DNA of 64,000 nt from Mesostigma viride (Eukaryota > Streptophyta > Mesostigmatophyceae > Mesostigmatales > Mesostigmataceae). The stretch is from positions 2,912,828 through 2,976,827 of the forward strand of contig RPFO01000079.1 in the NCBI GenBank assembly GCA_009746045.1. Direction: 5' to 3'. Under the pieces are notes generated by a model. It made no database searches. It saw nothing but the letters and a program-made list of their open reading frames with translations, and was not told where the DNA came from. Both the position numbers and the translations under genes were made by a program. Shown one piece after another: positions 1,271 through 48,350 of the stretch (within the stretch, counting starts at the first letter, position 1; each line of letters starts with the position of its first letter).

Positions 1271-1887
1271 AGTTGTGAGGGTAAGAATGCCACGAATTCC
1301 GCCATGGTTCTTGCAGGAAGTTGCCTTTATTAATAATCAGGAAACACAGACGTAAGTCACGTCACTTCCAAGACTGCACGCAGCACAGACGACAGGGTCG
1401 CAGTGCCAAGAGAACGTGCACGCAAGAACTAGCGTCCCGGTGTGACCAAGTCACTCATATAGCTTACTAGGGACGCGTCCAAGTATTCAGCTGCACTGTC
1501 ACAGCTGAACTGTCAATCAATTGATTACACAGACTCTGGCACGCCTTTGGCGCGCAGATCTATCAATTGTCCATACGGCTAGTCCTGTGGACCTATCCGT
1601 ACACTAGTCAGCATCAATTGTCTCATAGGTCCTGGCGCGCTACAGTGCGCCTACCTATCAATTGACCATCAAGTCCTGTACAAGTCCTGTCAACGTCCTG
1701 CGGACTATCAAAGTGACACTTGTACATCCTGTGTCCGTACGCGCCCACAGTGGCGCGCCGGGTACTGTCGGCACAGCCTAGGAAACGTCATAACTTTTAC
1801 GTTCCTTAACCAAATGAGGCGTTCAAGGTGCCGTTGGAAAGAGCGTAACAATCTCTATCCATCTAACGTAAATCCTTTACGTTAACT
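1271..1887 (-). repeat. 3' LTR of element 2
   Basis: 617 bp, a near-perfect direct copy of 8483-9099. The ends are AGTT and AACT, an inverted pair but not the usual TG...CA. The copy contains several short palindromes around GGCGCGCC and CAATTG. Confidence 0.93.
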
Positions 1888-1909
1888 CCAATCCCTTCTT
1901 TTCTTTAGG
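1888..1909 (-). promoter_or_regulatory. Polypurine tract of element 2
   Basis: On the minus strand the bases just before the 3' LTR read AAAGAAAAGAAGGGA then TTGG, followed by AGTTAACG of the LTR. Element 1 has the matching arrangement at 12441-12451 (GAAAGGGTTGG before AGTTAGCA). This is the expected primer site for plus-strand DNA synthesis. Confidence 0.8.
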
Positions 1910-2836
1910 GATCACATCCCCTGCCAGGGACCCTTGAAGTAGCTTGAAATGTCCTTCACTCCAGCTTGAAGCTTGAACAGATGTCTTTAATGGCCATTGC
2001 CATTCCCCCAGCCCTTTCTTTTAAGGAACTGGAAAAGAAACAGATCTGCCACAGGGAAAACCATTTCATGAGAAATGGAGAAAACCTATGGAAGTGGCAT
2101 TACAGAGTACCACCAGATATTAGAAGCACACAAAATTAAATACATACAGGTTAATTCTATGAGGTCTTCTCCAGGAATTAATCCCATCACCTCGGTAGAG
2201 CCTCCAGTACAATGACCTTCTGGCGGTGAGTTACATTAATCCCAGATACTAATCCCATAAAACCCAGTACATATTCAATATAAGTACAATAAATCCATGA
2301 CAATTAAAATACCACTTGACAAAGTAAGGCGTATTACAATAGTTTGCCTGTCATTCTCTCAACAGGGGTCTATTGGCGCCCGTCTTACGGCGCCCGTCTA
2401 CTTGCCAGATGGTAAACTGCCACAGCAAACAAATGACAAAATGAAACACATAGGCAACAATTAAATCCTGCCCTGGGGAACTAGGGAAGTCTGAACAGGC
2501 AAACACCTGAACAGGCCAGCTTGTAGAAACATAATACCAGGGAATCGAACCCCGCCCTATAAACCCCAGAATAAAGGTTCCCAGACCATTGTGAGAGGTA
2601 TGTACAAATATACATTTCTTTTAAAATAGAATACATGGTCTGTAATGGACCTGTCAACCTTGTGTAGTCAACAGCATGAACCCCAGCCAAAACCTGGCTG
2701 TATCCTGATTAAAATCAGAGTGAGTGTACCATGGTCCATGAGCCTTAGTACAGACTAAAATACAGGTATTATGCCAGTCACAATGCTGACACTACCACAC
2801 AATCTGCTCTCCAATGCCCTATAACCATGCACCAGC
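1910..2836 (-). other. 3' noncoding region of element 2
   Basis: Roughly 930 bp between the pol stop and the polypurine tract with no convincing ORF. Read on the minus strand it holds a GGGTTCGATTCCC motif (around 2545-2560), a repeated ACGGGCGCC unit (around 2374-2400) and the octamer GTAATACG (around 2330). All three have counterparts in the 3' noncoding region of element 1, so they are probably functional RNA or DNA elements of this lineage. Confidence 0.6.
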
Positions 2837-5800
2837 TTAGACAGCTTGCTGAGATGGGTCCATCAGAGACTGAAGAACCTTGTATTGCACTGCTGCCTTC
2901 TGCACTAGCTTGGTCAAAGCATCAGCAGGATTGTCAACCCCAGGGATATGCTCAATATTGGCCAAGGAGGACAACTCCTTAAGAAGGAGATAATCCAAGT
3001 CCCTACTTCTGGCCATCTGCCTGTGCACAAACTGCACCATCCCCATGGAGTCTGTTTTTAGAAGAGTGGTAACCTGAAGTGGCCAAGGAGTGTTAGAAGT
3101 CATCTGATGAAGCAACTCCTTCAGATAAAGGCTTGTGTGAATGCCTTCACAAATAGCCCTGCATTCTGCCACATCACTGCTGACAGCCACCCGTTTGTGC
3201 AGGCGACTAAACCAGCTCACCAAACTCCCCAGGCCTTCCTGTCTGAGCACAAAGAGCCCTGCAGCCCTGCCCCTGACCTTGGAGACCTGCCTGCTGTCCA
3301 TTGAGCTATCCACATACAGCTCCATGCAAATGGGTTGTGATAAATCCACTGCAGACAACAGAATGCCAGATGAAGCCCTGACCTGATCAGCCACCTTGGC
3401 AGACCCTAGCTCCACCAGCATGTCATCAGGCAACCTGGCTATGACCATAAGGTCTGGCCTGGAAATGCCTGCCACCCAAGCAACCATGCCCCTCACCATG
3501 GGACACAGTGCCTGTGTGATGGTTGGAGGAAGCTTGCTAATGAGGGTCTCTTGATAGTCATTGCCCCCCACCAGCAGCATACGCCACTCCCCTCCCTTCT
3601 TCACCAGTGTGGCCTCCATGCCCACAAACAGCAGAGGCTCATTCTCCACCTGCCATTGCTCCCTACCCAGAGGAAACTTGGACTTAATGATGGAGATCAG
3701 CTCCTTAAGCCACGACGTGGGAGCTATCAGATGTAGGTCATCCCCGTGCAGCGAAGCATACACTGGCAGGCCTTCCCATTGCCCCAGAAACAGACAGGGG
3801 TCTACAGGAGAGACCTTCAAGTTGCAATGCTCCTTCAGGAAACGGTTGAGAGTCTCCCTCCAGATTATTGGACTTGACCTCAGGCCCTCCAGGCCCTTGA
3901 GGATTTTAAGGAACTCCGTGTGGATGTCCCTTTTCCATACAGCAGGCACCCTAACATAGAAAGGCGTCTTGCCCTCCCACTTTTCCTGTGCCACATCTGC
4001 ATCACCCTCCAGAAATGCCCTCTTGAAGTCTATCACCACTGAGCCATAGTCCAAGCCCTTGTTGAGAAGGCCTAGAAAGACACACAGCAGCAGCCTCCAA
4101 GTATCATGCAGCATGCCAGGGGTATACAACTCCTCAGCAGTGCACTCACCAGTACCCTTGAACTCATTCAGCACTGGCCTGACATGTGGTACCTTGACCC
4201 CGTCCACCTCCTTCATCTTGATGACAAACTTGAGCTTGAGTAGACGTCGTGCAGGAGGCAGGTCATTGACAGGTTCCACGCATTTCTTGGAGATCCAGTC
4301 CTCCCCAGATTTAATCAGACCCAGTGTGACCTGGGGACACATAATGGGAGAGGACATGAGCTTCACCAGGCCTTGGTAGTTGATAGGGCTGTGTCCAGCA
4401 AGTGAGTGAGGACCAATGCCCAAACTGCTTGGATGACTAGCAGCTGGCAGTATGAGGTCATCAACCAAGGGCTCCTGCCCCTGGCACACTTGCACACGCT
4501 TAACCGTCCTGGTTACTGCACGTGATAGGTGAGTGGTCCTGAAATTAATCAGTGGGACCTGACCAGCCCCTTCCTTAGTCAGGAGAGAGGACGTGATCAC
4601 TACCCCATCCTGGCATAGGAAATTCTGCCCCAGAAGAGCAGGTCCTTGATAGCCCTCCAAGACACAAAAAGCAGTGTCCTGTCCAAGGATAGGAATGAAT
4701 ACCTCACCCAGTACCTTCACGTGTACCCCGCCACTGAAGTCAGACACAAACTGATAGCTGGGTTCAGACATGCTGTACCCTGCTGCAGCCCTGGTCCCAA
4801 TAATGGAGACCTGAGAATTAGTGTCTACCTCTAAGGCAGTGTCCAGCCCCAGATTGCCATGCCACCTGAGCTTGGCTACCTTGGGCTGCTTCTTGGCCCT
4901 TTGTAGAGCCCCAATCAATCCAGCCAAACTTGTCCCCCTGGGCTTGGTTAGTGCCTTGGGCTTGACAGTTGACTCCCCAGCTGTTGACCTTGCAGCCTGT
5001 TCAACAAGTACCTCTGCAACCTGGCCAGGGCTGACAGATTCCCCTGCAACAGATGTGGTCGTTGCGTCAGTGATGTCACCTGGGACCTGAAAATCCTGCA
5101 GATCCTGTGAGCCTTGTGCCTGACTGCCCTCATTCATCAGGTTAGGCTTGACATATGACCAACTCAGCCGGTGTACATGCTTTGGTTCGTCCTCCATGCT
5201 GACCAAGCATGCGTGGCTAGCTTCATCAACCTGGGTAACCACCCCAGGACTCCAGCTACCACGTTTGCCATAAAGGCTAGGTTCCTTCCAAGCTAGGACC
5301 TTCTGACCCACTTGTGGCTCCAGCATCTTCCAACCCCGGTCCTTCTCCCTCAGCTTGGCAAAGGTGACATGTGCAGCATGTTTCCAGCCCTCCAGCACAT
5401 GTGGTGGGCACAGGCCATGATATAGACCCATTGGGCTGACAGCAACTCCATCATAGTAGAAGTTAACCCTGCTGTTCAGCTGCTGCTCCACGTTCCTCAG
5501 CCATGCACTCCTGACAAGTGCAGGTGCAGACAAGGGTACCCAGTCTTCAGAGATGATCAATTTCTTGACCTCCTGGATTGCCCTCTCGATAGCACCCTGC
5601 TGCCCATGAGCCTCCCTAGGTGTAACCAGCAACTCAGGAAGGGTAGGATCACCCTTGAGATGCTGAAACTGCATGTCCACCTGGATCCTTGTGGTAGGAA
5701 ACTTGGCTCTTACATTCTGCAGGGCAGCCAGCAAGTACCTGTTCTTCATAGAAGGTAAATGCTCCAGCACCTTGTATTTCGTGTACCTGTCCACGCACAC

Positions 5801-6463
5801 CAACAGTTGCATGCCCCTGATGTGTTGGATATCACACTGCAGATCACCAATGCTCTGAGGTAGAGCTTTGGCATGTGATTTCCTGGGCTTGTTGGAGGAC
5901 AACTGGCACTTACACCGTGAGGCAGCTTGCTGACACGCCTTAAGAAGGGGTGCCCTGCCCATACGGAAGGCAAAGTTGTTTGACAGAGAAGTGGCATGCC
6001 CAAACATGTTGTGGATTCGGGCACCCAACTCCTGGTACACAGAGGAAGCAGTCCCTGGCACAGTCAGGACTGTGCTGTCAGGTTGTCCAGCATCACCATG
6101 CTGACTTCCATCCTGTTCTGACTCAGAGCCTGAGTCACCCTGCTCATGCCCAACACCTGGACCGCCAGCAGGGACCACATGCATACCACCAGAGGCCTTC
6201 ACACCCCTCTGTGGTTGTACATTGGTTTCTCTCAAAATGAGAGGTCCACCCTCGTGCCCAGCACGAGGATGCATAGGGTCAGACATACTTACAGCTGCAT
6301 CAGCTGTCAAGGACGTCTTCATAGGAACCTGTACCTCTCCAGGTGACCTGGGGCCACACTGAACCTGGAGATCACCCTCTTGTTGCCCAGATATAAAATC
6401 TGCATTGGAGCACCTGGCCTCCCCCTTGGGTGAATTAAGGTGTGTAGGGGTTGCCTCAGACAG
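2837..6463 (-). CDS. Pol polyprotein: integrase-protease-reverse transcriptase-RNase H (element 2)
   Basis: Open in the gag frame from the codon after UGA; the first Met is at 6322, and numbering from there gives 1161 residues. Integrase: zinc ligands H104, H109, C130, C137, C139 and catalytic D164, D216, E246, then an SH3-like domain at about 338-392. A retropepsin-like domain follows at about 488-575 with active site LEVDTNSQVSII (D500) and closing motif ALLGQNFL. Reverse transcriptase: D765 in VIDFKRAF, and HGDD at 859-862 where Copia normally has YVDD. RNase H: D1005, E1053, D1091, ending in ADALTK, a Copia hallmark. The order integrase-protease-RT is not the Copia order (protease-integrase-RT) nor the Gypsy order (protease-RT-integrase). 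The protein would be made only by read-through of the gag UGA or by separate initiation. Confidence 0.9.
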   Translation of the reverse strand: MSEATPTHLNSPKGEARCSNADFISGQQEGDLQVQCGPRSPGEVQVPMKTSLTADAAVSMSDPMHPRAGHEGGPLILRETNVQPQRGVKASGGMHVVPAGGPGVGHEQGDSGSESEQDGSQHGDAGQPDSTVLTVPGTASSVYQELGARIHNMFGHATSLSNNFAFRMGRAPLLKACQQAASRCKCQLSSNKPRKSHAKALPQSIGDLQCDIQHIRGMQLLVCVDRYTKYKVLEHLPSMKNRYLLAALQNVRAKFPTTRIQVDMQFQHLKGDPTLPELLVTPREAHGQQGAIERAIQEVKKLIISEDWVPLSAPALVRSAWLRNVEQQLNSRVNFYYDGVAVSPMGLYHGLCPPHVLEGWKHAAHVTFAKLREKDRGWKMLEPQVGQKVLAWKEPSLYGKRGSWSPGVVTQVDEASHACLVSMEDEPKHVHRLSWSYVKPNLMNEGSQAQGSQDLQDFQVPGDITDATTTSVAGESVSPGQVAEVLVEQAARSTAGESTVKPKALTKPRGTSLAGLIGALQRAKKQPKVAKLRWHGNLGLDTALEVDTNSQVSIIGTRAAAGYSMSEPSYQFVSDFSGGVHVKVLGEVFIPILGQDTAFCVLEGYQGPALLGQNFLCQDGVVITSSLLTKEGAGQVPLINFRTTHLSRAVTRTVKRVQVCQGQEPLVDDLILPAASHPSSLGIGPHSLAGHSPINYQGLVKLMSSPIMCPQVTLGLIKSGEDWISKKCVEPVNDLPPARRLLKLKFVIKMKEVDGVKVPHVRPVLNEFKGTGECTAEELYTPGMLHDTWRLLLCVFLGLLNKGLDYGSVVIDFKRAFLEGDADVAQEKWEGKTPFYVRVPAVWKRDIHTEFLKILKGLEGLRSSPIIWRETLNRFLKEHCNLKVSPVDPCLFLGQWEGLPVYASLHGDDLHLIAPTSWLKELISIIKSKFPLGREQWQVENEPLLFVGMEATLVKKGGEWRMLLVGGNDYQETLISKLPPTITQALCPMVRGMVAWVAGISRPDLMVIARLPDDMLVELGSAKVADQVRASSGILLSAVDLSQPICMELYVDSSMDSRQVSKVRGRAAGLFVLRQEGLGSLVSWFSRLHKRVAVSSDVAECRAICEGIHTSLYLKELLHQMTSNTPWPLQVTTLLKTDSMGMVQFVHRQMARSRDLDYLLLKELSSLANIEHIPGVDNPADALTKLVQKAAVQYKVLQSLMDPSQQAV

Positions 6464-6466
6464 TCA
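6464..6466 (-). promoter_or_regulatory. Candidate recoded UGA stop between gag and pol (element 2)
   Basis: The codons read CAG TGA CTG, and the same frame is open on both sides, from the zinc knuckle into pol with no further stop. Element 1 has AAG TGA CTA G at the same place (111-117). UGA followed by CUA is a well-known read-through context in viral and cellular genes. Confidence 0.7.
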
Positions 6467-7578
6467 CTGCTCCTTGTTGTCTTCTTGCTGACTGCCCTTT
6501 GAAGGCTGGCCTGCCTGGGACTTGTTGTTGTTCTTCTTGTTGTTGTTGTTATTCTTGTTGCTGCCCTGGCCCTGGGACTTCTTGAAGCTGGGACACTCCT
6601 TCTTGATGTGCCCCCACCCCTTGCACAGGTAGCATTGTATCTTGGACTTGCCCTGGCCACTGCCCCCATTGTCAGACGCGTTGCCCTGCTTGGGCTGACC
6701 ACCCACCCGCCTGAACACCGACTTGGAGTGTGACCTCCTGTCAGAATCAGGTGAATGATCTCCCTTGCGCTTGTGATGGTTGCCCCTACGCCCTCCTTGG
6801 CTTCGGTCAGCCTCAGACGTCTTGGAGCCACCCTGGGTACGCCCGCCTGCCTGGGTAGCCTTCACTGCTGGCACTCCACCCTCAAACAGCTCCTCTGCCT
6901 CGAGAGCTTGTTTAATGATGACCTTGTAGGCCTTCAGGGTAGAGTGTGGGGCACACATGACTTTTAAGGAGCCACGTGTCGCCTTATCCAGCCCAGAAAC
7001 CTTGAGCCAGTTGGTTAGGGCTATGTTATCAGCGACATTAAAGCCGTGAGCCCTGCCCTCCTCAACCATCTTACAATAGTTGAGAAAGTTCTGGATCAGG
7101 TCCCCCTTGACCTCCCACCCTTGATACTTGTCCTGCCAATGGATGCCGACCTTTTTCGTTGGTCCTCCAGCAGCTCCTTCAGCTCAGCCACGTACAGTGC
7201 CCAGGCCTTATTGGCCTTTTTGCACTCCCTGGTTAGGTCCTTAATCTGGTCAGTACACTTGCCAAAAGTGCTACTGCCTATCCAGATTTGATAGTAATTT
7301 GTACCACCGTACAAGCTAGGGAACCCTTCCAATCCCTCCACAAACTCTTCAGCCTGCTTAGGCTTGGAGTCTGAGGTTACAGGCTGCAACTGATTGACAA
7401 TTAAAAGACCCTGTGTGGTAAGATCAAAGCCATGAATAGCTTGTGCATTATTATTATTGTGAGGAAGGTTGGTAATCTCTCCGGTAAGCCCCACGTCATC
7501 TACGTGAGCGGTTCCACTACCAGCACCCCCATTATTATTCCCACTGGCTGGACCCTTGCTACGGCGTCCCTCAGCCAT
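6464..7578 (-). CDS. Gag (element 2), with one frame change
   Basis: The ORF starts at 7578 with an Asn- and Gly-rich leader. A helical capsid-like part follows, then a basic, Lys- and Asn-rich tail with a zinc knuckle (CYLCKGWGHIKKEC) near 6630. The frame from 7578 closes at 7096, while similarity to a continuous Gag continues in the -1 frame (7150 down to 6464). The change falls in a run of five A after CGA near 7153; six A would restore one frame of about 371 codons. This may be an inactivating deletion, a homopolymer error in the assembly, or slippage. Otherwise the product is a normal RNA-binding structural protein of virus-like particles. Confidence 0.8.
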
Positions 7579-7747
7579 CCTGCACTACCAGCTATTCAAA
7601 GAACACCTTAACAAAGCAGCAGAAAATATGTACAAAATTTTTGTGTCGCCTCTGCCGCCTGCGCCGGTGTCGCTGCCGCCCCCGCGAATTGCCGCCGAAA
7701 TTCGACAAAAAAATGTCGACAAGTACTGCAGAAGAAAATTAGGCCGA

Positions 7748-8458
7748 CTAGTAGTCAAGGCCCCTGAAGTCGCAGTACGTGTATACGAACTCACGATCCT
7801 CCATATCCAGCTCCGGACCTGCACCGGTATGAATTAAAACCGGCGTGCTCCCCGCCGCGTAAGTTGCGACGCGCCGACGCGCGACGAGGCGCAGAGGATG
7901 TGTAAAGATCGTCAATAATTCCCACCCCGCGGGAATCCACTCTCGCACAGAGGCGAGAAATGCCACCAGGTTAATTAAAACCTGGCGCTCACGACTGCGT
8001 ACGCCGCGAGTGAGCAGCGATAACAGCGCGAGATCCTGAAACAAATTTGTTGACACCGCCGGCGCGCCCCCCGTGCGAAGCGATGCCCAGTTTTGCAGGT
8101 TTCTCTGGTAACCGGTGAGTGAAGAGAGGACGTTGTCCAACTCCTCAATGGCAGTCGTGACTTCGGTCACCGACCGCAAACCTCCCCGCACCTGGACCGT
8201 AAATGTCGATAAAATGTTTCGAATCTGGTCCAACAGGTTGCGGATTGCCGGCACCAGTGCTGGCAAATCGGGGTCCTCGGGGTTATCCCCGAGCAATGCG
8301 TGAGCTGCACGCTGCTGACGATGAAGCTCGTCGAGCGAGACCGTTACTTCGTCGAGCAATTGCTGCCACGACGGCACCGTCGGTCTTGACGAAGAACCAG
8401 CCGGCGGAGCGGCTATTTCCTCATCGTCCGGAATCCGAAATTCTTCCGAATTTGGCAT
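7748..8458 (-). CDS. Unclassified 236-codon ORF between 5' LTR and gag (element 2)
   Basis: It begins 25 bp inside the 5' LTR boundary at an ATG (8456-8458) and ends at TAG 7748-7750, before gag starts at 7578. The open reading that runs back to 8548 enters the LTR and is ignored. The protein has an acidic, Pro- and Ser-rich N-terminus, a predicted mostly helical middle rich in Leu, Glu and Arg, and a Tyr- and Asp-rich end. I see no zinc finger, protease or nucleocapsid motif and cannot assign a family. Base composition is clearly more G+C-rich than the neighbouring gag, which suggests separate origin. Copia elements normally have no ORF here. Confidence 0.6.
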   Translation of the reverse strand: MPNSEEFRIPDDEEIAAPPAGSSSRPTVPSWQQLLDEVTVSLDELHRQQRAAHALLGDNPEDPDLPALVPAIRNLLDQIRNILSTFTVQVRGGLRSVTEVTTAIEELDNVLSSLTGYQRNLQNWASLRTGGAPAVSTNLFQDLALLSLLTRGVRSRERQVLINLVAFLASVREWIPAGWELLTIFTHPLRLVARRRVATYAAGSTPVLIHTGAGPELDMEDREFVYTYCDFRGLDY

Positions 8459-8482
8459 CTTTTTGACAGAGCGTGTAATACG

Positions 8483-9099
8483 AGTTGTGAGGGTAAGAAT
8501 GCCACGAATTCCGCCATGGTTCTTGCAGGAAGTTGCCTTTATTAACAATCAGGAAACACAGACGTAAGTCACGTCACTTCCAAGACTGCACGCAGCACAG
8601 ACGACAGGGTCGCAGTGCCAAGAGAACGTGCACGCAAGAACTAGCGTCCCGGTGTGACCAAGTCACTCATATAGCTTACTAGGGACGCGTCCAAGTATTC
8701 AGCTGCACTGTCACAGCTGAACTGTCAATCAATTGATTACACAGACTCTGGCACGCCTTTGGCGCGCAGATCTATCAATTGTCCATACGGCTAGTCCTGT
8801 GGACCTATCCGTACACTAGTCAGCATCAATTGTCTCATAGGTCCTGGCGCGCTACAGTGCGCCTACCTATCAATTGACCATCAAGTCCTGTACAAGTCCT
8901 GTCAACGTCCTGCGGACTATCAAAGTGACACTTGTACATCCTGTGTCCGTACGCGCCCACAGTGGCGCGCCGGGTACTGTCGGCACAGCCTAGGAAACGT
9001 CATAACTTTTACGTTCCTTAACCAAATGAGGCGTTCAAGGTGCCGTTGGAAAGAGCGTAACAATCTCTATCCATCTAACGTAAATCCTTTACGTTAACT
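8483..9099 (-). repeat. 5' LTR of element 2
   Basis: 617 bp, matching 1271-1887 with one mismatch by eye. The internal region starts with CGTATTACACGCTC just below 8483, which does not match the usual initiator-Met tRNA primer site, so the primer is not identified. Confidence 0.93.
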
Positions 9100-9104
9100 G
9101 AAGA

Positions 9105-11481
9105 TGCCAATCGTTCCTGCCTTGTGGCCTTGGAGAGTAATCCCAGGCATGTTTACAGGTTGAGCTGGGCCAACGTCAAGGAACGCAAGCCACATGCAAT
9201 CTGGCCTGCAGACGGGCCTGGACCCCAGTGTTGGCTGGAGGGCCAGGTTGAGGACCAGGTAGTTGATGTGCCTGTCACTGACGTGGGAGGTGGCTATCCC
9301 TCTGATGATGATGAGGTGCAGGAGGCAACTGCATCACCTGTGGTGGAGCCAACGGGGGCTGGGCCTGCACCAGGGTCCAAGAGGCCACTCATGGCAGACA
9401 TTGTCCGGTCGCTCATGTTCAACAAGCACAAGGATCCCAAGGTATCTAAGTTGACTGAATGGGGTTCTTGCTGGGCTGCTACCCTAGAAGTGGATACTAA
9501 CTCAGAGGTGTCTATCATCAGGGTGGAGGATGCTCAGGGCCTGAAGGTGAATAAGGCTGGCTGCAGGGCAGTGAGTGACTTTACGGGCACTGTAACAATG
9601 AAGATCCTAGGGGAAGTGACTGTGCCTATCCTGGGTGTCCCCACTGCGTTCTGTGTGGTGGAAGGGTACCAGGGGCCTGCCATTTTGGGCCAGAATTTCT
9701 TGTGCATGCCAGGAGTGACTCTGTCAGCAGATGAGCTTGCACTAGAAGGTCACGGCAGTTTGCCCCTCCAGAGATATCACTACTCCAAGGGTCTAGCTGT
9801 GGCAGTCAAGGCTGTGAAGGGGCAGCAGAGTGTGGGGCCTGAAGGCAAGGAGCCCATTGCTGAGGACTTGTTGATCATCCCAACCACCCTAGATCCACGG
9901 GACTTGGGGGTGCACAAGTACCAGATTGCTGGTCACAGTCCTATTTCCTGGCACCAGTTGGTAGAGTTGATGCAAAGCCCCAAGATGGCTAAGGCATGGA
10001 TTCTAGGGTTTGTCTCCAGTGGGCATGACTGGATAGTGTCTAACTGTGCTGAGCCTGTGGATGAGTTGCCCAGGGAGCATCAGTTGCTAAGGCTCTTGTT
10101 TGTGCTCAAGCTGAAGGAGATAGACGGGGTGCAGGTGCCACATGTGAGGCCAGTTGTGACTGAGTACCATGGCACGGGGGAGCTGACAGATGAGGAGTTG
10201 TATACGCCTGGGATGCTGCATGATACCTGGAGGATTGTTCTGTGTATATATCTGTCTTTCCTGGTCAAGGGCATTGCGTGCTGATTGATTTCAAGAGGGC
10301 TTTTCTCAAGGGTGATGTGGAGCAGGCCAAGGAGACGTGGCGTGATATCCCTCCCTTCTTTGTAACAGTGCCCAAGGTGTGGAGAGCAGAGATCAAATCA
10401 AAATATCTCAGAATACTCAAGGGTTTGGAGGGTCTCAGGTCCAGCCCTATCATCTGGAGAAAGAGCCTGGAAAAGTTTCTGAAAACTCACTGTGGCTTTA
10501 CTGTGTCTCCAGTTGATCCTTGCTTGTTCCAGAGTACTCATGAAGGGTTGCCTGTGTTTGCATCTCTGCATGGAGATGACCTGCACCTTTTAGGGCCTCC
10601 TGAGTGGGTGGATTCAGTACTGTCCAAGATCCAGAAGAGGTTTGAGTTAGGAAAGGTCCAGCACATGAAGCAGGATGAGCCCATGGTGTTTTGTGGAATG
10701 CAGGCCACGCTGATCAAGAGGGCAGGTACTTGGTTTATCAAGATGGAGGGTGGCAACAACTATCCTCAGCAGATCATTGATGCCCTCCAGCAGCCCATTA
10801 CCCAGGCCAGGTGTGCCACAATCAGGGGAATGTTGGCTTGGCTAGCTAGCATTTGTGCCCCAGATTTGTTGGTGCTGAGTAGGCTCACAGATGCTCAGCT
10901 GGTTGAGGTAGGGGCAGAGCAGGTGGTTGAGTCTGTCAGGAGCTCACCTCCACTCATACTGGCAGCTGTGGACTTGTACAAACCACTCAACATGGTGCTT
11001 TTTGTGGACAGTTCCATGGACAGCAGGAAGGTGACGGATGTCAGGGGTAGGGCAGCAGCACTCATTACACTACAACAGGAGCACACTTCTCTGGTCAGCT
11101 GGTACAGTAGGTTACAGAAGTTACAGGGTGACGCCCAGCAGTGACATTGCTGAGTGCAGGGCAATATGTGAGGGGCTACACACTGCTCTTTACCTCAGGG
11201 AGTTATTCTACCAGCTCTGTCAGGTAGCTTCCTGTAGCTTGCAGCTGCACACACTGGTCAAGACAGACAGCATGGGCATGGTGCAGTTTGTGCACAGACA
11301 GCTCGCCAGGAGCAGGGATCTGGATTATTTGTTGCTGAAGGAGATGTCTTACCTTGCTCATCTTGAACATGTGCCTGGTGTTGACAACCCAGCAGACGCC
11401 CTCACCAAGCTGGAGAGCAAGGCTGAGCTACAATACCCTGTGCTCAAAGGGCTCATGGACCCCTTTTCTGGTGGGACTTGA
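9105..11481 (+). pseudogene. Pol C-terminal part: protease, RT, RNase H (element 1, frameshifted)
   Basis: The frame of 114-1265 resumes at 9105. It first completes the integrase C-terminal domain, then shows the retropepsin-like segment (LEVDTNSEVSII near 9490, AILGQNFL near 9690), then RT. A frameshift near 10280 separates the palm N-terminus from VLIDFKRAF; the second piece carries HGDD (near 10575). A second frameshift near 11120 precedes the RNase H end with SSDIAECRA and ADALTK, stopping at 11481. Similarity to element 2 is clear along the whole length. Confidence 0.88.
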
Positions 11482-23086: not shown

Positions 23087-26000
23087 TCATCTGGATCCTT
23101 TGTCCTCCACCAGGATGCGCACGCGGGGCAGGATCTCCTCCAGCGTGCACACCTGCAAGACATCATACAACGTGTGGATTGTCTTCTGGTACTGGGGGAA
23201 CACAGACTCGAACCGAGCCAGTCGAGTGAGGACCTTCTGCATCACTGGCACAATGCGGGCAGGATCGTTCACCCCCAGTAGCCGCATGACCGTCTGCAGC
23301 AGCTGCCGACTGTACGCATACGCCTCACTTATGCTGTCCGATGCCTGCCTGTTCTTCTTCACTTCCGACACGCCCACGTCGCCACCGGGGCCCCCATCCC
23401 CACCCCCACCTCCACCCCCACCCCCACCCCCACCCCCACCCCCACCAGGGCCTTTCCGATTCCCACCAAAGACAGCGGGAGGGTGCTCCTCCTGCAAGCC
23501 CAGCTGGGCCGCCTCTCCTTGATCCAGAAGCCGCCGACACACTGCTTCCAGGCACACCGCGGTGCCTGCAGACGGCCGCAACCCCAGCATGCTGCGCAGC
23601 GCCTGCAGCAAGTTTGCCGCCTCCTCCTTGGCCTGGTACGCCGATGTCACCGCGGGCAAGATGCCCTCCAGGTGCGGCACGTCCAACAGGCGCATGACGT
23701 GGGCCACCACGCGGTGGAGCGGCGTCGCGTTGGGGCTGGATTTGAGGGCTGACTCGGCCCCACGGAACGCAGCCACCTGGGCCGCATGTTCCTGCTCAAA
23801 TCGGACCAGCTCCGTCACCGCGACCGCCGCCATCGGTAGGCTCATTCTGGCATCCCTGGCCGAGGATGGTGGCGGTGACAATGCCTCCGCCGACATGTTA
23901 ATTCTAGCACCGTTAAGGGTATCCATATGCCGCTTTGCCAGCTCAGCCATGATGACGCGCTGGAACTCCCTCAGCGTCACCAGCTGGCGCAGCTCCTGCA
24001 TCCAGGTCTTGAGGATAGCCGGGACGTCCGATGGTGCTGGCGGCCGGTACGCCCAGGGCTCGCCCTTGCTGCCATCATCACCACTCCAGGCATCTCCGAC
24101 ATTTCCTGGACGATGCGGTGGCAGCTGCTCCCTGATCCTGGTTACCATTCCACCTCCCCCGTCCCCTTGCTCCTGCTGGTGTGGCACTCCCCTGGTCGTC
24201 TTGGAATCGGACATTTGGGAGGGTCTGCCGCCCAGAGACTCTGATCCAGCTGCTGAAACACTTGTGGGGGGGGCGTACGATGACTGTGCCAGCGACTGCC
24301 CGGCAGCCGCCAGCAGTAGTGGCCGCATGCGCGCCTCCCCCTCCACCACCACCCCGCACACCTCGCTGATGAAGCTCTCCATGCGGGGGATCGCTGCTAC
24401 CGCACGGCACAGCTTGGCCACCGCGACAGGCGCCGCCGTGACGTCGCGCAGCTCCAATAATACACACACGTCCACCAGGAGATCTGTCGCGGTGCCGGGG
24501 GGCAGTAGCTCCGCAGACCCCAGCCCAAGCCGGTGCACCTCCTTGTCACGTCGGATCTGGTCACGTGCGGACACCGGGCGAGGCGCGGCGATGCGAGAGG
24601 GGCGCCCGTTGAGGCCCACGGTCCTTCCCCTATTGTTGCGGGCATTTCCCCCAGGCCCCTTGGTGCCGGATGCCAGCCCCGTGTCCCAGCCAGGTTCATG
24701 GCCATCCTCGCCCTCCTCGTCACTGCCCAGCATCCCTGCCCTGGAACCGCGCAGAGCAGCCACCCCTCCATGATCCTTGTTGGCCAGACTCTCCTGGCCG
24801 CGCCTGTCGTCGTTACGGCGGTTCCCCCCCTCCCTTCCCTTCAAGCCATCCTCACCATCATCACCATCACCGTAACCACCCTCATCGTCACCACTCTCCA
24901 ACGCCTCCCACTCCTCCCGATCCAGGTGCCCGTCCACTCCCCCGCTGCCCGCCTCCCTCCCTTTCAACCGCCGTACCAGCCGCCAGAGGTTATCCGCCCG
25001 TCGCTGCAGCGCCCGCACCGCCTTGACGCTCGGCCTGGACGCCAGCTCCGCCACCAGCTCCCCATTCTCCTCCAATAAGGACGATACTCTCCGCTCGGCC
25101 GCCGCCGCCTGCACCTCCGCCTCCTTGACCCCATTCTCCCTGGCAGTTTCTGACAGGGCGAGCTTCCCTTCCAATTCCCTTATCCTAGCCTCGGCCACCG
25201 CGGCGCGTTCCATCTCCTCCCCTTGGCTGAGGCTGCGCCACCCCTTGGACTTGTCCTTCCGGATGATAACATTCTCCAGCTCTCGCGTGTGTGCCAAGAG
25301 GGAGGACACCTCGGCCCTTAAGCCATTCATCTCCTCTTGCATCGCTGCCTGCTTGGCCTCATACAGGCCCACAATGTCCTGTGGCCGCAGCTGCCGCAAG
25401 ACAGCGCCCAACGCCGGCGATGACAACCCACTGCCCCCGGCCCCACTGCCCCCTGGGCTGGTCCCGCTAAGACTGCCTGCGTCCCTGACACGCCCCTTGG
25501 GATCCGGTGACGATGCTGACGACATCTGCTGATGGGGGATGGCGTGCCTGCCACCGCCACCGGCTCGCATCGCCCGCTGTATACTGGCATACGTCTCCTT
25601 CTCCTTGATCCTCCTCCTTCCCTCCTTCTCCACCATCTCCCTCAGCTTGTCCTTGAGCCGCTCTAGCTCTCCCTCACGCGCCCGCGCCAGGTGCTCTGCC
25701 TGCGCCACCGCGCGAGTAATGTCCGCCAGCGCCGCCTCGTGCTTGTGTTGCCGCGAGGCTGCCGCAGCAACCGCTTTGTCCCTCTCCTCCTTGACACGCC
25801 TCAGGTCCCTTGTGGCGGACACCAGCTGCCCCTCCAGCTGGCCCTTCTCGCGGGCCGCTCTGTCGAGCTCCCTCGCCAGCGCGTCGGCTTGCGCCTGGGC
25901 ATCCCTCGTGTCTGTCAGCAATTGCTGCACGAGGGCGTCACGTCGTCGCTGGTGGAGCAGCACCTCCTTGAGGGCGGCGTGGAGGCAGCGGGTGAGGGAG

Positions 26001-29000
26001 TCCTGCTGCCACTGCTGCTGGTTCTTCTTCGGCGGCTGATTTTGCTGCTGGCGGTGTTGCTGCTGATGATGATGCGGAGGAGGAAAAGGATGATGGGTAG
26101 GAAGTTGACCCTGAGGGCCTCGCTGGTCTCCCTGTCTCCAGGGATCATGATGATGAGGGTCCTCTCCAGCATCAAATGATGTCGATGACGGACTTGGAGA
26201 CCTGGCCGCCGTCCCACCCCCGCTACAACCATCCTCCAAGACGTCTCCCTCTGATCTGGTGGTGGGTTCGTAGCCATCACTGGCACCTCCATGGGAGCAC
26301 CCATCCATGCCCCTTCCCCCGGGCTTGATCATGCTGGTCTCCGTAACAAAAGACGATGTGGCGTCGTCCAGCAGTATGGGCGCGTAGCCGCCGCCGGCCA
26401 GCATCTGGTTGATCTGCTGCAGCTCAAAGGGGGAGATGGCCGGGGGCCATTGTGGATTGCTGTCATCTGTCCCCTTGGATGCACCATCCCCACCACCATC
26501 CCCGGCTATGTCTGAGTAGCCAGAAGCGTCCTGGGTCCCGCTCCCATGCCCCCCAACCCCCTTATCCCCTTCCCTATCTCCAGTCCCATCCACATCAGCG
26601 TCAACACCGCCTGTCACATCCCACCCATCCCCGTAGTTCCCTGCCCGCACGCCAGCTGGCAGGCGCGATGCCATGAGGCCGTTTGAGACCAGACCACTGT
26701 CATCCGACACAGCCCCACCACCATACGCGTGGTCACTAGCCCCATCAAGGCCAGCCCCATCTACCACACGCAACACCGCGGGATCCTGGTCATGGGAGGG
26801 CTCTTGCACTGGGCGTGGGGGCAGGTGACGGTAGTTGGGACCCTGGCCCTGGTAGCCCATCCCGCCCTGGGACGTGGGCAACGCGTCGCCAGGGACCCGA
26901 CAGGCCTCCCCCCTGGCAGGGAGCCCCACGCTGGCACCGAGACGAAGATACTCGTCGGTTGATTCTGCCGAGGGCACAGGCCTACCCCCCGCCGTCACAG
27001 GTCGACGAGAGGGCACCGGCAATGGAGGATGAGAGGCCGTTAGAGCCGACAAGTGTGAGTCACTGTAACCACGTGGGTCACTGTAACCATCTAGGTCATG
27101 AAAACTGCCCCTTGATGGGTCAGCGTGATGCCCCTCACCTTGCCGCGTGCCTGGCAGAGCCTGTTCCGATAACCCAAACCCACGTGGAAGCATCGCCCCC
27201 AATCTTCCATGGCCAGGATAAGCCCCTCTAGCTTGGGACAGTTCCAACCCGAGGGATGCGTCCACCCCCTGATCCTCCTGTGTGGTGATGCTGCCATCTG
27301 CACCGTTGGCGTGGTGGTTGCTGCTGCCCCCGCCCCCGTGTGCCAGCTCGTGTAAAACCGAGTGGTTCGCGCTGGTCCCGTACGAGGACGAGGTCATGGA
27401 CTCTCGCAGGCTGGTGATCTGTGAGCGCAGCTCCTTGGTGCCCTGCAGGGGAGAGCGAGGACGGATGGCGCACGCATAACAAGCCAGGAGGGACGGCGTA
27501 AGCATAACACGGTAAGCATGACAGCGTGGAGTGATGGCGTGCGGCGTGGCGAAGAGTGACGGGGTAAGCGTGACGGCGTGGAGTGTGTGTGCGGTGACAT
27601 GCCGTCGTGGTAGTAAATATTACACTGTGGCGGTGTGGGGGGTGCGTGTGTGGGTGGGTGTTGACATGGCATGAAGGTAGACCAGGCGAGCGCAGCGGTG
27701 AGAATTTAGGATAGAGTCTAAGGTTCAAATTACAGGTCTACGGTCACTATAGTAATACAAGGGTCGTCGCCCGTTCAAGCAGGAGAAGGGGCAGTCTGTT
27801 CAGGGGTCATCCATATATAAAGTGCCCAGACAAGACAAAGACAAGAGGAAACAATGGGGAGCAAAGGCGTTGTGTTGGCTCCCCATCAACCTTCGCCCGA
27901 AAGAGCTCCTTTTTGCTCATTACGTCAATAAATTGGCCAGTGTACGCCTGGTCTGCTTTATAATATCCTGCCACTCTGGCGGAAACGGGTTCAGAGGGCC
28001 ATGAATGAACTTCACGCCCCTACGTTGCAAGGCCCTTGGCCACAGCTCTGGCCACAGAATCTCTAGTCACCACTTCCGCAACATTCGAAACAAAGTCGCC
28101 TGATAAATTCTCTCAAAAGCCTTGGGCAGGATGCCATGCTGTGGAAAGCGGCGCGCGAGCCAATTGCTCCCCCCATCGCTTTCCACAGTCACTTCTCGTG
28201 ACCGGACGACCCTACCCCTCCGCACGCCAGCCATCGTCATGTCTGCCCACTGCCGACTAGCATACCCACACACATCCGGGTAGGCAAACGGTGAAAAACA
28301 ACACTGGCCAGCAAACGGTAGTAGACAGTCGTGGAGGCCTGCGGTTTTGTTAACCCAGGGCCTCTGGTTGTCGTCATGCCAAGCAGGCAACAAACATATC
28401 ATATCAAAGATGACAACATTGCGGTGACAAAGACCCCGTGCTTCCGCCGCGCAAACCGCAACCACATCATATTGGTCAGGGGGATGGGTATCTAGGTTTG
28501 CTTTGGCAACAAGGGCACCTCATCAAACCTTACCCAGGTTACATGAGCAAAGAGTGGTGACTAACCATTGCCAGTTCTCATGACTGTCAAACTGTACCCA
28601 GATACAGCAAAAGGAGCATTTAAGTTTTAGTAAACCATTCTGGTAACAGACCTCCCTCATGAAACTACATCAACGCTACATGATTAAGAGTGTGTGATAT
28701 TCGCAACTGTCTAGGCTTTGGTGGCGAGCCACAACCCACCTCATCAAACTGCACTGACAGAGCCTGCATCTCCCGCGCAAACTCGCTCAGATGACTGCCC
28801 TCGTGCCCGCGCCCATCGCCCATACCCCTGCCATTGCCGCCCACCATCACATCCACCAGGGTACCGGCCGCCGCTGCCGTCCCATCCATTGACGGTGCAG
28901 ATGACCCCACGCCACCGGTAACGTCCTGCACCGAAGACCCAACCGCACCGGTGACATCCTCCCATCTCTGCCACTGCCTCGCTACCCCATGATCGAGCAA

Positions 29001-30396: not shown

Positions 30397-30820
30397 AGTA
30401 TGTGTGTGTGCGTGTGTGTGTTGACACACATGTTGACACACATCATGCTGTGAGCTACGCAGACATAGTCATGGTCGGGCAAGAAGTCTTCAGGGGCAAA
30501 AAGGGCACCAGGTTGGCAAGAACAGATCCATGAGGCAACCAGTAGAGGCGAAGACCCGCAACAAAGTATTCCAGATCATGTCTGCCTCTGTACCAGGCAC
30601 GTAAACTAACTCACGTTCCGGTCGATGGAATAAAGTAAGAGTGTGCAATGTGCGTTTGCGTGATTGATGAGCTACGTGAGCGATGGTCCATGTTGGGCAA
30701 GGAGTTCATGGGGAACAGAGGGGACACACCTACATAAAGAAATGATGGATATATAGGCACATGATGGATATGTAGGCGGGTGATGGATGTGCAGGCAGGT
30801 GATGGATGTGTAGGCATTAT
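30397..30820. other. Probable 5' part of the CEP70-like gene or intergenic DNA
   Basis: No exon could be assigned with confidence. A short degenerate repeat of GATGGATGTG near 30740-30810 leads into the AACTG array. Confidence 0.4.
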
Positions 30821-32406
30821 AACTGAACTGAACTGAACTGAACTGAACTGAACTGAACTGAACTGAACTGAACTGAACTGAACTGAACTGAACTGAACTG
30901 AACTGAACTGAACTGAACTGAACTGAACTGAACTGAACTGAACTGAACTGAACTGAACTGAACTGAACTGAACTGAACTGAACTGAACTGAACTGAACTG
31001 AACTGAACTGAACTGAACTGAACTGAACTGAACTGAACTGAACTGAACTGAACTGAACTGAACTGAACTGAACTGAACTGAACTGAACTGAACTGAACTG
31101 AACTGAACTGAACTGAACTGAACTGAACTGAACTGAACTGAACTGAACTGAACTGAACTGAACTGAACTGAACTGAACTGAACTGAACTGAACTGAACTG
31201 AACTGAACTGAACTGAACTGAACTGAACTGAACTGAACTGAACTGAACTGAACTGAACTGAACTGAACTGAACTGAACTGAACTGAACTGAACTGAACTG
31301 AACTGAACTGAACTGAACTGAACTGAACTGAACTGAACTGAACTGAACTGAACTGAACTGAACTGAACTGAACTGAACTGAACTGAACTGAACTGAACTG
31401 AACTGAACTGAACTGAACTGAACTGAACTGAACTGAACTGAACTGAACTGAACTGAACTGAACTGAACTGAACTGAACTGAACTGAACTGAACTGAACTG
31501 AACTGAACTGAACTGAACTGAACTGAACTGAACTGAACTGAACTGAACTGAACTGAACTGAACTGAACTGAACTGAACTGAACTGAACTGAACTGAACTG
31601 AACTGAACTGAACTGAACTGAACTGAACTGAACTGAACTGAACTGAACTGAACTGAACTGAACTGAACTGAACTGAACTGAACTGAACTGAACTGAACTG
31701 AACTGAACTGAACTGAACTGAACTGAACTGAACTGAACTGAACTGAACTGAACTGAACTGAACTGAACTGAACTGAACTGAACTGAACTGAACTGAACTG
31801 AACTGAACTGAACTGAACTGAACTGAACTGAACTGAACTGAACTGAACTGAACTGAACTGAACTGAACTGAACTGAACTGAACTGAACTGAACTGAACTG
31901 AACTGAACTGAACTGAACTGAACTGAACTGAACTGAACTGAACTGAACTGAACTGAACTGAACTGAACTGAACTGAACTGAACTGAACTGAACTGAACTG
32001 AACTGAACTGAACTGAACTGAACTGAACTGAACTGAACTGAACTGAACTGAACTGAACTGAACTGAACTGAACTGAACTGAACTGAACTGAACTGAACTG
32101 AACTGAACTGAACTGAACTGAACTGAACTGAACTGAACTGAACTGAACTGAACTGAACTGAACTGAACTGAACTGAACTGAACTGAACTGAACTGAACTG
32201 AACTGAACTGAACTGAACTGAACTGAACTGAACTGAACTGAACTGAACTGAACTGAACTGAACTGAACTGAACTGAACTGAACTGAACTGAACTGAACTG
32301 AACTGAACTGAACTGAACTGAACTGAACTGAACTGAACTGAACTGGACGGAACTGGACGGAACTGGACTGGACTGGACTGAACTGGACTGAGCTGAACTG
32401 AACTGA
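30821..32406. repeat. (AACTG)n pentanucleotide satellite
   Basis: 305 consecutive perfect AACTG units (30821-32345), then about 60 bp of degenerate units (GGACGG, GGACTG). The 633-codon minus-strand ORF across it encodes only the repeat pentapeptide pattern and is not a gene. Confidence 0.98.
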
Positions 32407-32436
32407 AGATTTACCTTTTCCTTTGGCTATGGAGGT

Positions 32437-32721
32437 GAGTGCATGCATGTAGTAAAGAAACAGAGGCATTCCAAGGGATACACAGGGCACTTTGAGTGCA
32501 TGCATGTAGTAAAGAAACAGAGGCATTCCAAGGGGTACACGGGGCACTTTGAGTGCATGCATGCAGTAAAGAAACAGGGGCATTCCAAGGGATACACGGG
32601 GCACTTTGAGTGCATGCATGTAGTAAAGAAACAGAGGCATTCCAAGGGATACACGGGGCACTTTGAGTGCATGCATGTAGTAAAGAAACAGAGGCATTCC
32701 AAGGGATACACGGGGCACTTA
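32437..32721. repeat. 57-bp minisatellite, five copies
   Basis: Five tandem units starting GAGTGCATGCATG and ending GGGCACTT, nearly identical. Because 57 is divisible by three, several frames stay open over it. It directly follows the AACTG array. Confidence 0.95.
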
Positions 32722-46270: not shown

Positions 46271-47171
46271 CTCAACAACCTGCTATCGCTTTCAAAATGG
46301 ACTGTCTGCCTGCCTTAAGCACGCGAGGCAAGCTCCCGAATTCCTGTGGGTTGGCCTGGAGCAGCAGTAACGCGTTTCTGCCGGATCCCTAAGACACGCC
46401 ACGGCCGACGTTCTTTCCAGCTCTAGGAGAGATTATTGATGAACTTTGTTATTCCGTGTTCGTAAACTTACTGCCAAGAATCGAACCACAGACCACGCAG
46501 AGACGGGAAAACTTCCACATCACTCCCTCGATGATGCCAAAATTTGCCATCATCGTTCGGGCTCGCCACGGTCCTGTCTTCCTCCATCCCGCCAAAACGC
46601 GGAGACCAGAAGTCATTAGACAACTACTTCACAGGTAGTGGAGGGTACGAATGTGATACTACTGGCAGCGCACCCGGCCCCCGGGCAGGCGTGGGGGGCA
46701 ACAAGCCAACAACAACCACAACAACAACTCAGTCGGCTTCCAGTCCGGATGACTTGTATCCCGCGCCGCACATGAGCAGCAAAGAGCCGGAATACGGAAT
46801 ACGGTATCGGATGCTACAGTAAGAGATTAGCAGCTGCTTCAGGGGTCAGTCAGTCAATGTCAGTTCTATCCCACTTCAGGGGTGCTTGAAGCTTTGGAGC
46901 CGGGAGGCTTCAGGCTTGCCCAGGTGGCCGGCAGATCACCCCAGCTTGGAGCCTGCGGTGGAACGCGCTGGAAGCGAGTCAAGCGACCCAGAACTTAATC
47001 CCGCCGGGTCAAACTTTTGGGCATTGCCATGGCGGTTGTCGGCTTGTCGCGGCGCCGGGCGGTTGCTAGCCCTTGGTGCGTTGGCGTGGTTTGGCGTGCC
47101 GGATGACGTCGGGCATTGATATTTGCTTTCCGGGGCGAACGCGACCAGCTCGCCATTATAAAGCCACCATT
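46271..47171. other. Intergenic region between RBX1 and ASD (divergent promoters)
   Basis: The two genes diverge from this 0.9-kb stretch, so it must contain both promoters. A plus-strand ORF at 46544-46822 contains QKSLDNYF, a PCNA-binding (PIP) box pattern, followed by a Thr/Ser/Gly-rich stretch. I cannot say whether it is a gene. Confidence 0.45.
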
Positions 47172-48350
47172 ATGGCCTCGCTGTCGACGGCATCTTGCGT
47201 TTCAGCTCCCAGTGTTGGCTTGAGGAGGGCTAATCCCGCGCAGCAGCTTCGCCTGTCTGCTTCGCAGCCGGCTGTCCGGTTACATTCTCGAAGAGTGCAG
47301 GTTACACGAATGGGACTTGATCCGAAGGGGCCATCGATTTGCATTACCGGTGTGACGGGAGCCGTCGGGCAGGAGTTTTTGCGGGTTCTTGACGAGAGAA
47401 ATTTTCCTTATTCGAATCTCAAGGTGACTGCCTCGGAAAGAAGTAAGGGCCAGAAGATCAATTTCCAGGGCAGGGAGTACACGGTCGAGGTCGCGGACCA
47501 GAACACTTTTAAGGATGTTGACATCGCCCTGTTCAGCGCCGGCGGCTCCTTGAGCAAGGAGCTCGCCCCCCTCGCTCGCGATGTCGGCTGTATCGTCATC
47601 GATAACAGCTCCGCCTTCCGGATGATTGACGGCATTCCCCTGACCATTCCCGAGGTTAACCCGGAGTCTATCAAGGGCATCAAGGTGGGAACCCGTAAGG
47701 GAGCCATCATCGCCAATCCAAACTGCTCGACCATTATTGCCTTGACGGCCATCAATGTGCTGTACAGGGAGGCGGGCATCAAGCGCATGGTTGTCAGCAC
47801 ATACCAGGCCGCCAGCGGCGCCGGCTACTCCGCCATGCTCGAGTTGCAAAACCAAACCCGGGAGGTACTCGACGGGAAGCCACCAACCATGAAGATTTTC
47901 CCTCAGCAGTACGCCTTCAACCTCTTCTCCCACAATACCAAGATCGGGCCCGAGGGCTACAACGAGGAGGAGCTGAAGATGCTCAAGGAGTCGCGTAAGA
48001 TCTGGAACGACCCCGAGATCCGTGTCGCGGCCACCTGCGTCCGCGTCCCTGTCATGCGCGCGCATGCGGAGAGCATTAACCTGTCCTTCCGCAAGCCTCT
48101 CTCGGAAACACGGGCCCGTGAGCTGCTTCTGAAGGCCCCTGGCGTTGACGTCGTTGATGACCGGGAGAACAACCGCTTCCCTACGCCCCTGCTGGTGTCC
48201 AATAAGGACAACGTTGCGGTTGGCAGGATCAGGTCGGACATCTCGCAGGACAAGGACATGGGCCTGGAGTTGTTTGTGTGCGGCGACCAGATCAAGAAGG
48301 GCGCCGCCCTGAACGCCGTCCAGATTGCTGAGTTGATCCTGAAGCAGTAA
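47172..48350 (+). CDS. ASD: Aspartate-semialdehyde dehydrogenase, plastid-targeted
   Basis: A single exon of 392 codons. I start at the Met that opens a Ser/Ala/Arg-rich transit peptide (MASLSTASCVSAPSVGLRRA); the frame is open further upstream, but those codons do not resemble a signal. The mature enzyme starts near residue 50 with the nucleotide-binding motif GVTGAVGQEFL. Other family motifs are SAGGS, DNSSAFRM, the catalytic cysteine in NPNCST, SGAGYSAM, QYAFNLF and a basic substrate site with VRVPVMRAHAE. It reduces aspartyl phosphate to aspartate semialdehyde with NADPH, the branch point to lysine, threonine and methionine in the plastid. Lack of introns contrasts with all other host genes here. 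Confidence 0.96.
   Translation: MASLSTASCVSAPSVGLRRANPAQQLRLSASQPAVRLHSRRVQVTRMGLDPKGPSICITGVTGAVGQEFLRVLDERNFPYSNLKVTASERSKGQKINFQGREYTVEVADQNTFKDVDIALFSAGGSLSKELAPLARDVGCIVIDNSSAFRMIDGIPLTIPEVNPESIKGIKVGTRKGAIIANPNCSTIIALTAINVLYREAGIKRMVVSTYQAASGAGYSAMLELQNQTREVLDGKPPTMKIFPQQYAFNLFSHNTKIGPEGYNEEELKMLKESRKIWNDPEIRVAATCVRVPVMRAHAESINLSFRKPLSETRARELLLKAPGVDVVDDRENNRFPTPLLVSNKDNVAVGRIRSDISQDKDMGLELFVCGDQIKKGAALNAVQIAELILKQ

Follow-up and report, generated by a model that had tools for sequence, protein, structure and literature searches.

Nested retrotransposons in the Mesostigma viride contig

The window, that is, the whole stretch of 64,000 nucleotides analyzed here (Mesostigma viride assembly GCA_009746045.1, contig RPFO01000079.1, positions 2,912,828 to 2,976,827), holds two long terminal repeat (LTR) retrotransposons, one inserted in the other, whose polyproteins carry a retropepsin-like segment between the integrase and the reverse transcriptase (RT). 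Element 2 spans window positions 1271-9099 on the minus strand and is nested in the pol gene of element 1. It possesses the components by which an LTR retrotransposon is recognized, namely, two LTRs, a target-site duplication, gag, and pol. Its ends are made up as follows.

8483..9099, minus strand: 5' LTR of element 2, 617 bp, termini AGTT..AACT (pairwise comparison)
1271..1887, minus strand: 3' LTR of element 2 (pairwise comparison with the 5' LTR)
1266-1270 (left copy) and 9100..9104 (right copy): target-site duplication GAAGA in the flanks of element 2
8459..8482, minus strand: presumed primer-binding region, 24 nt, beginning CGTATTACA, as in element 1
1888..1906, minus strand: polypurine-rich tract preceding the 3' LTR (from the sequence)

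The two LTRs of element 2 are 617 bp each and differ by a single mismatch, and the site of its insertion is unbroken in another copy of element 1 (L027), which reads straight through; the insertion of element 2 into element 1 is young. Target duplications of 5 bp, as are typical of Copia, were found in the window and at all eight further copies with both ends readable (4 of the 8 fetched element 2 copies and 4 of the 6 of element 1). LTRs usually end in TG..CA; here the ends are AGTT..AACT in element 2 and AGTT..AAAT in element 1 (L027, L029, L030, and L032). EARE-1, in the available part of its description, is an example of the usual ends (PMC5258746).

Order of domains in the polyprotein

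The pol genes of both elements were resolved into the following parts.

2840..6463 (ORF 2837-6463), minus strand: pol open reading frame (ORF) of element 2, 1208 aa, uninterrupted
5144..6019, minus strand: integrase of element 2, with HHCC (H151, H156, C184, C186), D211/D263/E293, and a C-terminal GKRG stretch (Pfam rve; residues invariant in three families)
4538..4882, minus strand: retropepsin-like protease of element 2, residues 528-642 (profile matches, motif, selection)
4823..4825, minus strand: putative catalytic Asp547 in a DTN motif (alignment of families)
3494..4261, minus strand: Copia-type RT of element 2 with HGDD, limits approximate (Pfam RVT_2, E 4e-6)
2906..3346, minus strand: Copia-type RNase H of element 2 (family alignment, profile match); D1052, E1100, and D1138 are presumably its catalytic residues
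384..1270, plus strand: integrase of element 1, the opening part of its split pol (tblastn, element 2 pol as query)
9439..9783, plus strand: protease of element 1, Asp at 9493-9495, with protease-RT-RNase H lying within 9100-11481
10278..11463, plus strand: RT and RNase H of element 1, with a frame change in the window copy after the protease

An earlier note on this DNA had read the order in element 2 as integrase, retropepsin-like segment, RT, and RNase H, and this is the order that we found, all in one frame, in the uninterrupted 1208-aa ORF. In ORF numbering, the HHCC motif begins at 149 and is followed by D211, D263, and E293; LEVDTNSQ lies at 544 (D547) and ALLGQNFL at 609; the RT has IDFKRAFL at 811 and HGDD at 906; and the RNase H has YVDSS at 1050. 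The residues that the note had called D164, D216, E246, and D500 are D211, D263, E293, and D547, the note having counted from Met48. The segment with LEVDTNSQVSII and ALLGQNFL is thus placed between integrase and RT. The same order had been claimed for element 1, the pol of which is split by element 2, and it holds in the parts of element 1 within the window as well as in six of six full copies elsewhere. In place of the Ty1/Copia order (protease-integrase-RT-RNase H), both elements have integrase-protease-RT-RNase H.

Copies and families across the genome

Beyond the window copy, element 2 pol was found at 38 places on 32 contigs, each 100% identical, a lower bound on its copy number because only these 38 of 10087 first-look candidates were scored; the element has amplified recently. 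A 401-aa protease-RT stretch of element 1 gave 6067 candidates, of which 103 matches were scored, and all six full element 1 copies fetched, which were chosen for a long frame, had an intact 1179-aa pol of like order. One of the loci fetched (L031) also holds a Gypsy-type protease-RT frame of 397 aa that adjoins an element 1 copy, on the reverse strand from base 8709 of the reverse complement onward.

A DNA pattern for YTPGMLHDTW, written so as to pass over the codons that elements 1 and 2 use, had 1195 matches in the genome and 0 in the control, a motif count that includes broken copies and fragments. Integrase-protease-RT was present in seven of eight loci fetched from these matches; the eighth (L042) is partly masked, with only the protease end and RT visible. 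One of the loci (L036) encodes an intact pol of 1196 aa that is 49% identical to that of element 2 and has the same domain order. With L041 and L043 differing little from L036, and L037-L040 and L042 falling in the element 1 group, the clear families number three. Three canonical Copia elements of the same genome (L033-L035, taken from 150 RVT_2 matches scored) encode, in one frame, a protease ahead of integrase and RT.

The nesting in the window might suggest that the unusual order is an artefact, either pieces of nested insertions joined as a chimera or an error of assembly. Yet the order of element 2 lies inside one open frame that recurs unchanged at the 38 places, and uninterrupted element 1 copies and the third, diverged family (L036) carry it too. 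On these grounds we rejected an artefact, the chance of which we regard as negligible. The evidence, which comes from one genome, supports integrase-protease-RT-RNase H as a genuine order, fixed in three diverged families whose frames are intact. No relatives were found in viral or prokaryote contigs, which is what one would expect of a eukaryotic element; those sets may lack records close to the window's own genome.

Affinity of the integrase and RT-RNase H

The description of these elements as Copia-like is borne out by the RT-RNase H. Pfam RVT_2 matched the RT of element 2 with 27 bits, under its cut-off of 31.6, and no RVT_1 match appeared at E 1 or below. An RT-RNase H profile of the three families aligned with the pols of the three canonical Copia elements across 417 columns (E 4e-10), and the integrase and protease profiles of the same families gave no alignment with those pols in the by-domain comparison. 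Pfam rve was detected in element 2 at E 0.04 for the whole protein and 0.0063 for the segment, both under the curated cut-off, and HxxxGH is common to the integrases here and the canonical Copia integrase, but their profiles do not align above the level of shuffles. The earlier note had looked to an RT phylogeny to show whether the order marks a clade. In an unrooted tree of eight rows, without outside references, the five elements of this order were split from the three canonical Copia by a 100/100 branch.

The segment between integrase and RT

Searches of the PDB with the segment returned retroviral proteases almost throughout: 9 of 10 matches at E up to 10 with the single sequence (best 0.055), 20 of 21 with a two-sequence profile (best 0.003), and 15 of 16 with a five-sequence profile (best 0.005), in register with residues 45-98 of the human immunodeficiency virus (HIV) protease. 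Pfam gag-asp_proteas matched three of five members (best E 0.052), with no match to longer segments of elements 1 and 2. The best alignment to six gag-asp_proteas/Gypsy-type proteases of the genome (out of 17 such segments at hand) covered 20 columns and set VDTN on VDTG, and 10 of 400 column shuffles did as well. A two-part retropepsin motif, composed after the sequence was seen and with its Gly position left free, occurred once in each of the three pols, at the protease site, and in none of 20000 shuffles of element 2 pol. Retropepsins have a hydrophobic-hydrophobic-Gly motif some 60-70 residues after the catalytic Asp, and Gly612 stands in such a motif 65 residues after D547.

The triplet at the putative active site is DTN in 39 of 40 fetched loci, or 32 of 33 copies after removal of overlaps, with L042 the exception; its Asp and Thr do not vary among the aligned families. 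Purifying selection acts on the domain. Its ratio of nonsynonymous to synonymous substitution rates (dN/dS) was 0.17 between element 1 and L040 and 0.11 between element 1 and L039. In the same two pairs the linker that precedes it gave 0.68 and 0.44, and the stretch that follows 0.22 and 0.26; the integrase gave 0.14 (L039 only) and the RT 0.08 (L040 only). Synonymous divergence (dS) in these pairs is high, at 0.8-1.6, a point that belongs with the counterevidence below, and more distant pairs were saturated.

Several further observations weigh against an element with a Copia-type RT-RNase H and a working retropepsin. The PDB matches were limited to the C-terminal half of the protease, and the best E-values came from tethered dimers with two stretches summed, single stretches having independent E-values (i-Evalue) of at least 7; the best single-chain protease reached E 0.09 with the two-sequence and 0.19 with the five-sequence profile. 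Pfam was blank on element 2's own segment. AlphaFold models of the segment alone and of a two-sequence alignment were of low confidence (mean predicted local distance difference test [pLDDT] of 33 and 39), and a PDB fold search with the second had no protease among the matches listed (of 77), and no match of any kind at E 0.001. In place of the D-[ST]-G of retropepsins there is DTN, and no DTG was seen in the fetched loci. Lastly, a profile of three integrases against the three canonical Copia integrases was not above shuffles, 213 of 300 of which reached its score. The likeness to retropepsins is weak, but its several lines are concordant; we take the segment for a retropepsin, and probably an active one.

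The triplet also bears on whether the domain might be a relic, or a non-catalytic retropepsin-like fold in which DTN cannot cut, maturation being left to a host protease or needless. In all three families Asn stands in the place of Gly, and a DTG version of the motif had 3 genome matches versus 7 for the control, as such a loss would have it. A relic would, however, be expected to lose the Asp, which is conserved with the Thr; the dN/dS of the domain is similar to that of the integrase (one pair); and the near-identical LTRs (differing at 1 of 617 positions) and identical copies attest to recent activity. We consider a domain without catalysis unlikely, though the most serious of the alternatives. 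Active-site triplets given in the accessible portion of PMC8402755 are DTG in HIV and DSG in foamy virus.

Gag, ORF1, and the junction with pol

Upstream of pol, element 2 has the following features.

7751..8458, minus strand: ORF1, 236 aa, without known domain and with no Pfam match of note
6467..7578, minus strand: gag, its frame broken near 7154 in the window copy
6587..6637, minus strand: zinc knuckle of gag, CCHC type (Pfam zf-CCHC E 0.0016, slightly short of the cut-off)
6464..6466, minus strand: in-frame UGA separating gag from pol; next codon CUG

In both elements ORF1 starts 24 nt past the 5' LTR, ahead of gag; that of element 1 has 321 aa (L029). The break in gag falls at a short purine-rich site where the frame varies, being kept in four of the eight fetched copies and shifted in the other four and the window copy, among copies otherwise 99.4-99.8% identical. 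The break in the window copy may be real or an assembly error.

In 14 of 14 element 1 and element 2 copies, gag and pol share one frame and are parted by UGA-CUN, which reads UGA-CUAG in the former and UGA-CUG in the latter. Among the loci from the pattern survey it is the first stop past the zinc knuckle in six of seven (L036-L041); L043 had no zinc knuckle that we could find, and L042 is outside this count. UGA-CUA is a known readthrough context, and the conserved stop would presumably be read through here as well. Passages of PMC10085805 record that readthrough of a gag/pol stop is known in several retroelements.

The claim that no protease lies between gag and integrase held in a motif scan, in which gag, ORF1, and the pre-integrase stretch of elements 1 and 2, and the pre-integrase stretch of L036, had no second retropepsin motif in a hydrophobic context. 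The sole strict string was DSGS, at residue 110 of the element 2 pol; it lies in a low-complexity run of acidic character and is not present in element 1 or L036. With no motif found, we rejected a hidden retropepsin in these regions. A protease of another type might sit in gag or ORF1, the domain past the integrase then having a different job; ORF1 is without known domain. Besides the blank motif scan, it speaks against this that the ORF1s of elements 1 and 2 are not alignable (best E 0.62), unlike the enzymatic parts, and we judge such a protease very improbable.

Comparison with known retrotransposons

The claim that known Copia and Gmr1-like elements keep the protease ahead of the integrase agrees with PMC2774666, the available text of which places the integrase downstream of the protease in all known Ty1/Copia genomes and in Gmr1-like Ty3/Gypsy, and usually last in Ty3/Gypsy and retroviruses. 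Likewise, as far as the excerpts at hand extend, GAG-PROT-INT-RT-RH is given for the 5410 Copia elements of a plant survey (PMC6317226), and Troyka has the Gypsy order (PMC12440569). The earlier note knew of no described integrase-protease-RT lineage, and we found no description in the open-access PubMed Central (PMC) literature, Repbase and subscription journals lying outside the search; in the portions available, the order is not described in PMC2774666, PMC8226300, PMC5258746, PMC10085805, PMC8402755, PMC12440569, or PMC6317226.

The elements resemble Ty1/Copia in the type of the C-terminal RT-RNase H, an integrase ahead of RT, a CCHC gag, and 5-bp duplications, and differ in the protease past the integrase, ILG/LLG rather than LLS, DTN, and the LTR ends. 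With Gmr1-like Gypsy they share an integrase ahead of RT and a rearranged pol, whereas those elements, in the text at hand, have a Gypsy-type RT and a protease that precedes the integrase; here the RT is Copia-type and the protease follows, which sets our elements apart from them. Ty3/Gypsy and retroviruses also have an ILG-type protease immediately ahead of RT, but their integrase, in the passages available, is usually last, and the RT here is RVT_2, not RVT_1. Finally, pCal of Candida albicans, a Copia element in which gag and pol are split by a read-through in-frame stop, is similar at the junction and dissimilar in having the usual Copia domain order.

With very few exceptions, according to the part of PMC2774666 at hand, Copia proteases have LLS where most others have ILG. 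LLG or ILG was found in five of five aligned proteases of this order and LLS in the three of three canonical Copia of the genome, which suggests a captured protease of Gypsy/retrovirus type. The protease profile agreed: against three Copia proteases 128 of 400 shuffles were as good, versus the 10 of 400 for the six Gypsy/gag-asp_proteas-type ones, both comparisons being weak. A simple relocation of the Copia protease is thus disfavoured, and from the sequences the protease was perhaps captured rather than moved.

Other features of the window

Positions 30611-32718 (minus strand) have three overlapping frames on one strand, all of pentapeptide repeats, which suggests a tandem DNA repeat. An aspartate-semialdehyde dehydrogenase is encoded at 47070-48347 (plus strand) in one 426-aa open frame that carries an extra 86-89 aa or so at its N terminus; its best match in the PDB is 2yv3_A. 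A 1510-aa open frame at 23087-27619 (minus strand), in a stretch of 63% G+C, had no Pfam match at E 0.01.

Proposed expression and significance

We favour, with a probability of roughly 0.79, an autonomous LTR retrotransposon with Copia-type RT-RNase H, arranged LTR-ORF1-gag-UGA-integrase-protease-RT-RNase H-LTR, that uses readthrough and a working retropepsin. The first frame would yield Gag, and a minority of ribosomes would pass the UGA in its UGA-CUN context to make Gag-Pol. In the particle, the retropepsin, with Asp547 as its probable catalytic residue, would dimerise and cleave the polyprotein on its two flanks, thereby releasing integrase, RT-RNase H, and the Gag parts. The RT would then copy the RNA, and the integrase would insert the DNA, with the 5-bp duplication as the result.

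The chances seem about even that this is a separate lineage, at the level of a family, in which the Copia protease ahead of integrase was lost and an ILG-type protease of Gypsy/retrovirus kind was captured between integrase and RT, its active site then changing to DTN, with UGA readthrough for Gag-Pol; this would amount to a swap of modules between the two main divisions of retrotransposons and to a functional polyprotein order that is new. LTR retrotransposons are defined and classified by their domain order, and an element whose order is unexpected may be dropped from surveys; in PMC6317226, in the portion consulted, elements with unexpected domain order were dropped as likely mispredictions, and such filters can hide real lineages. 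The 1195 motif matches in one genome, together with intact frames in three families, show that the position of the protease is not fixed. Proteases may be swapped between retrotransposon groups. What a retropepsin requires at the third position of its triplet could be tested directly on DTN.

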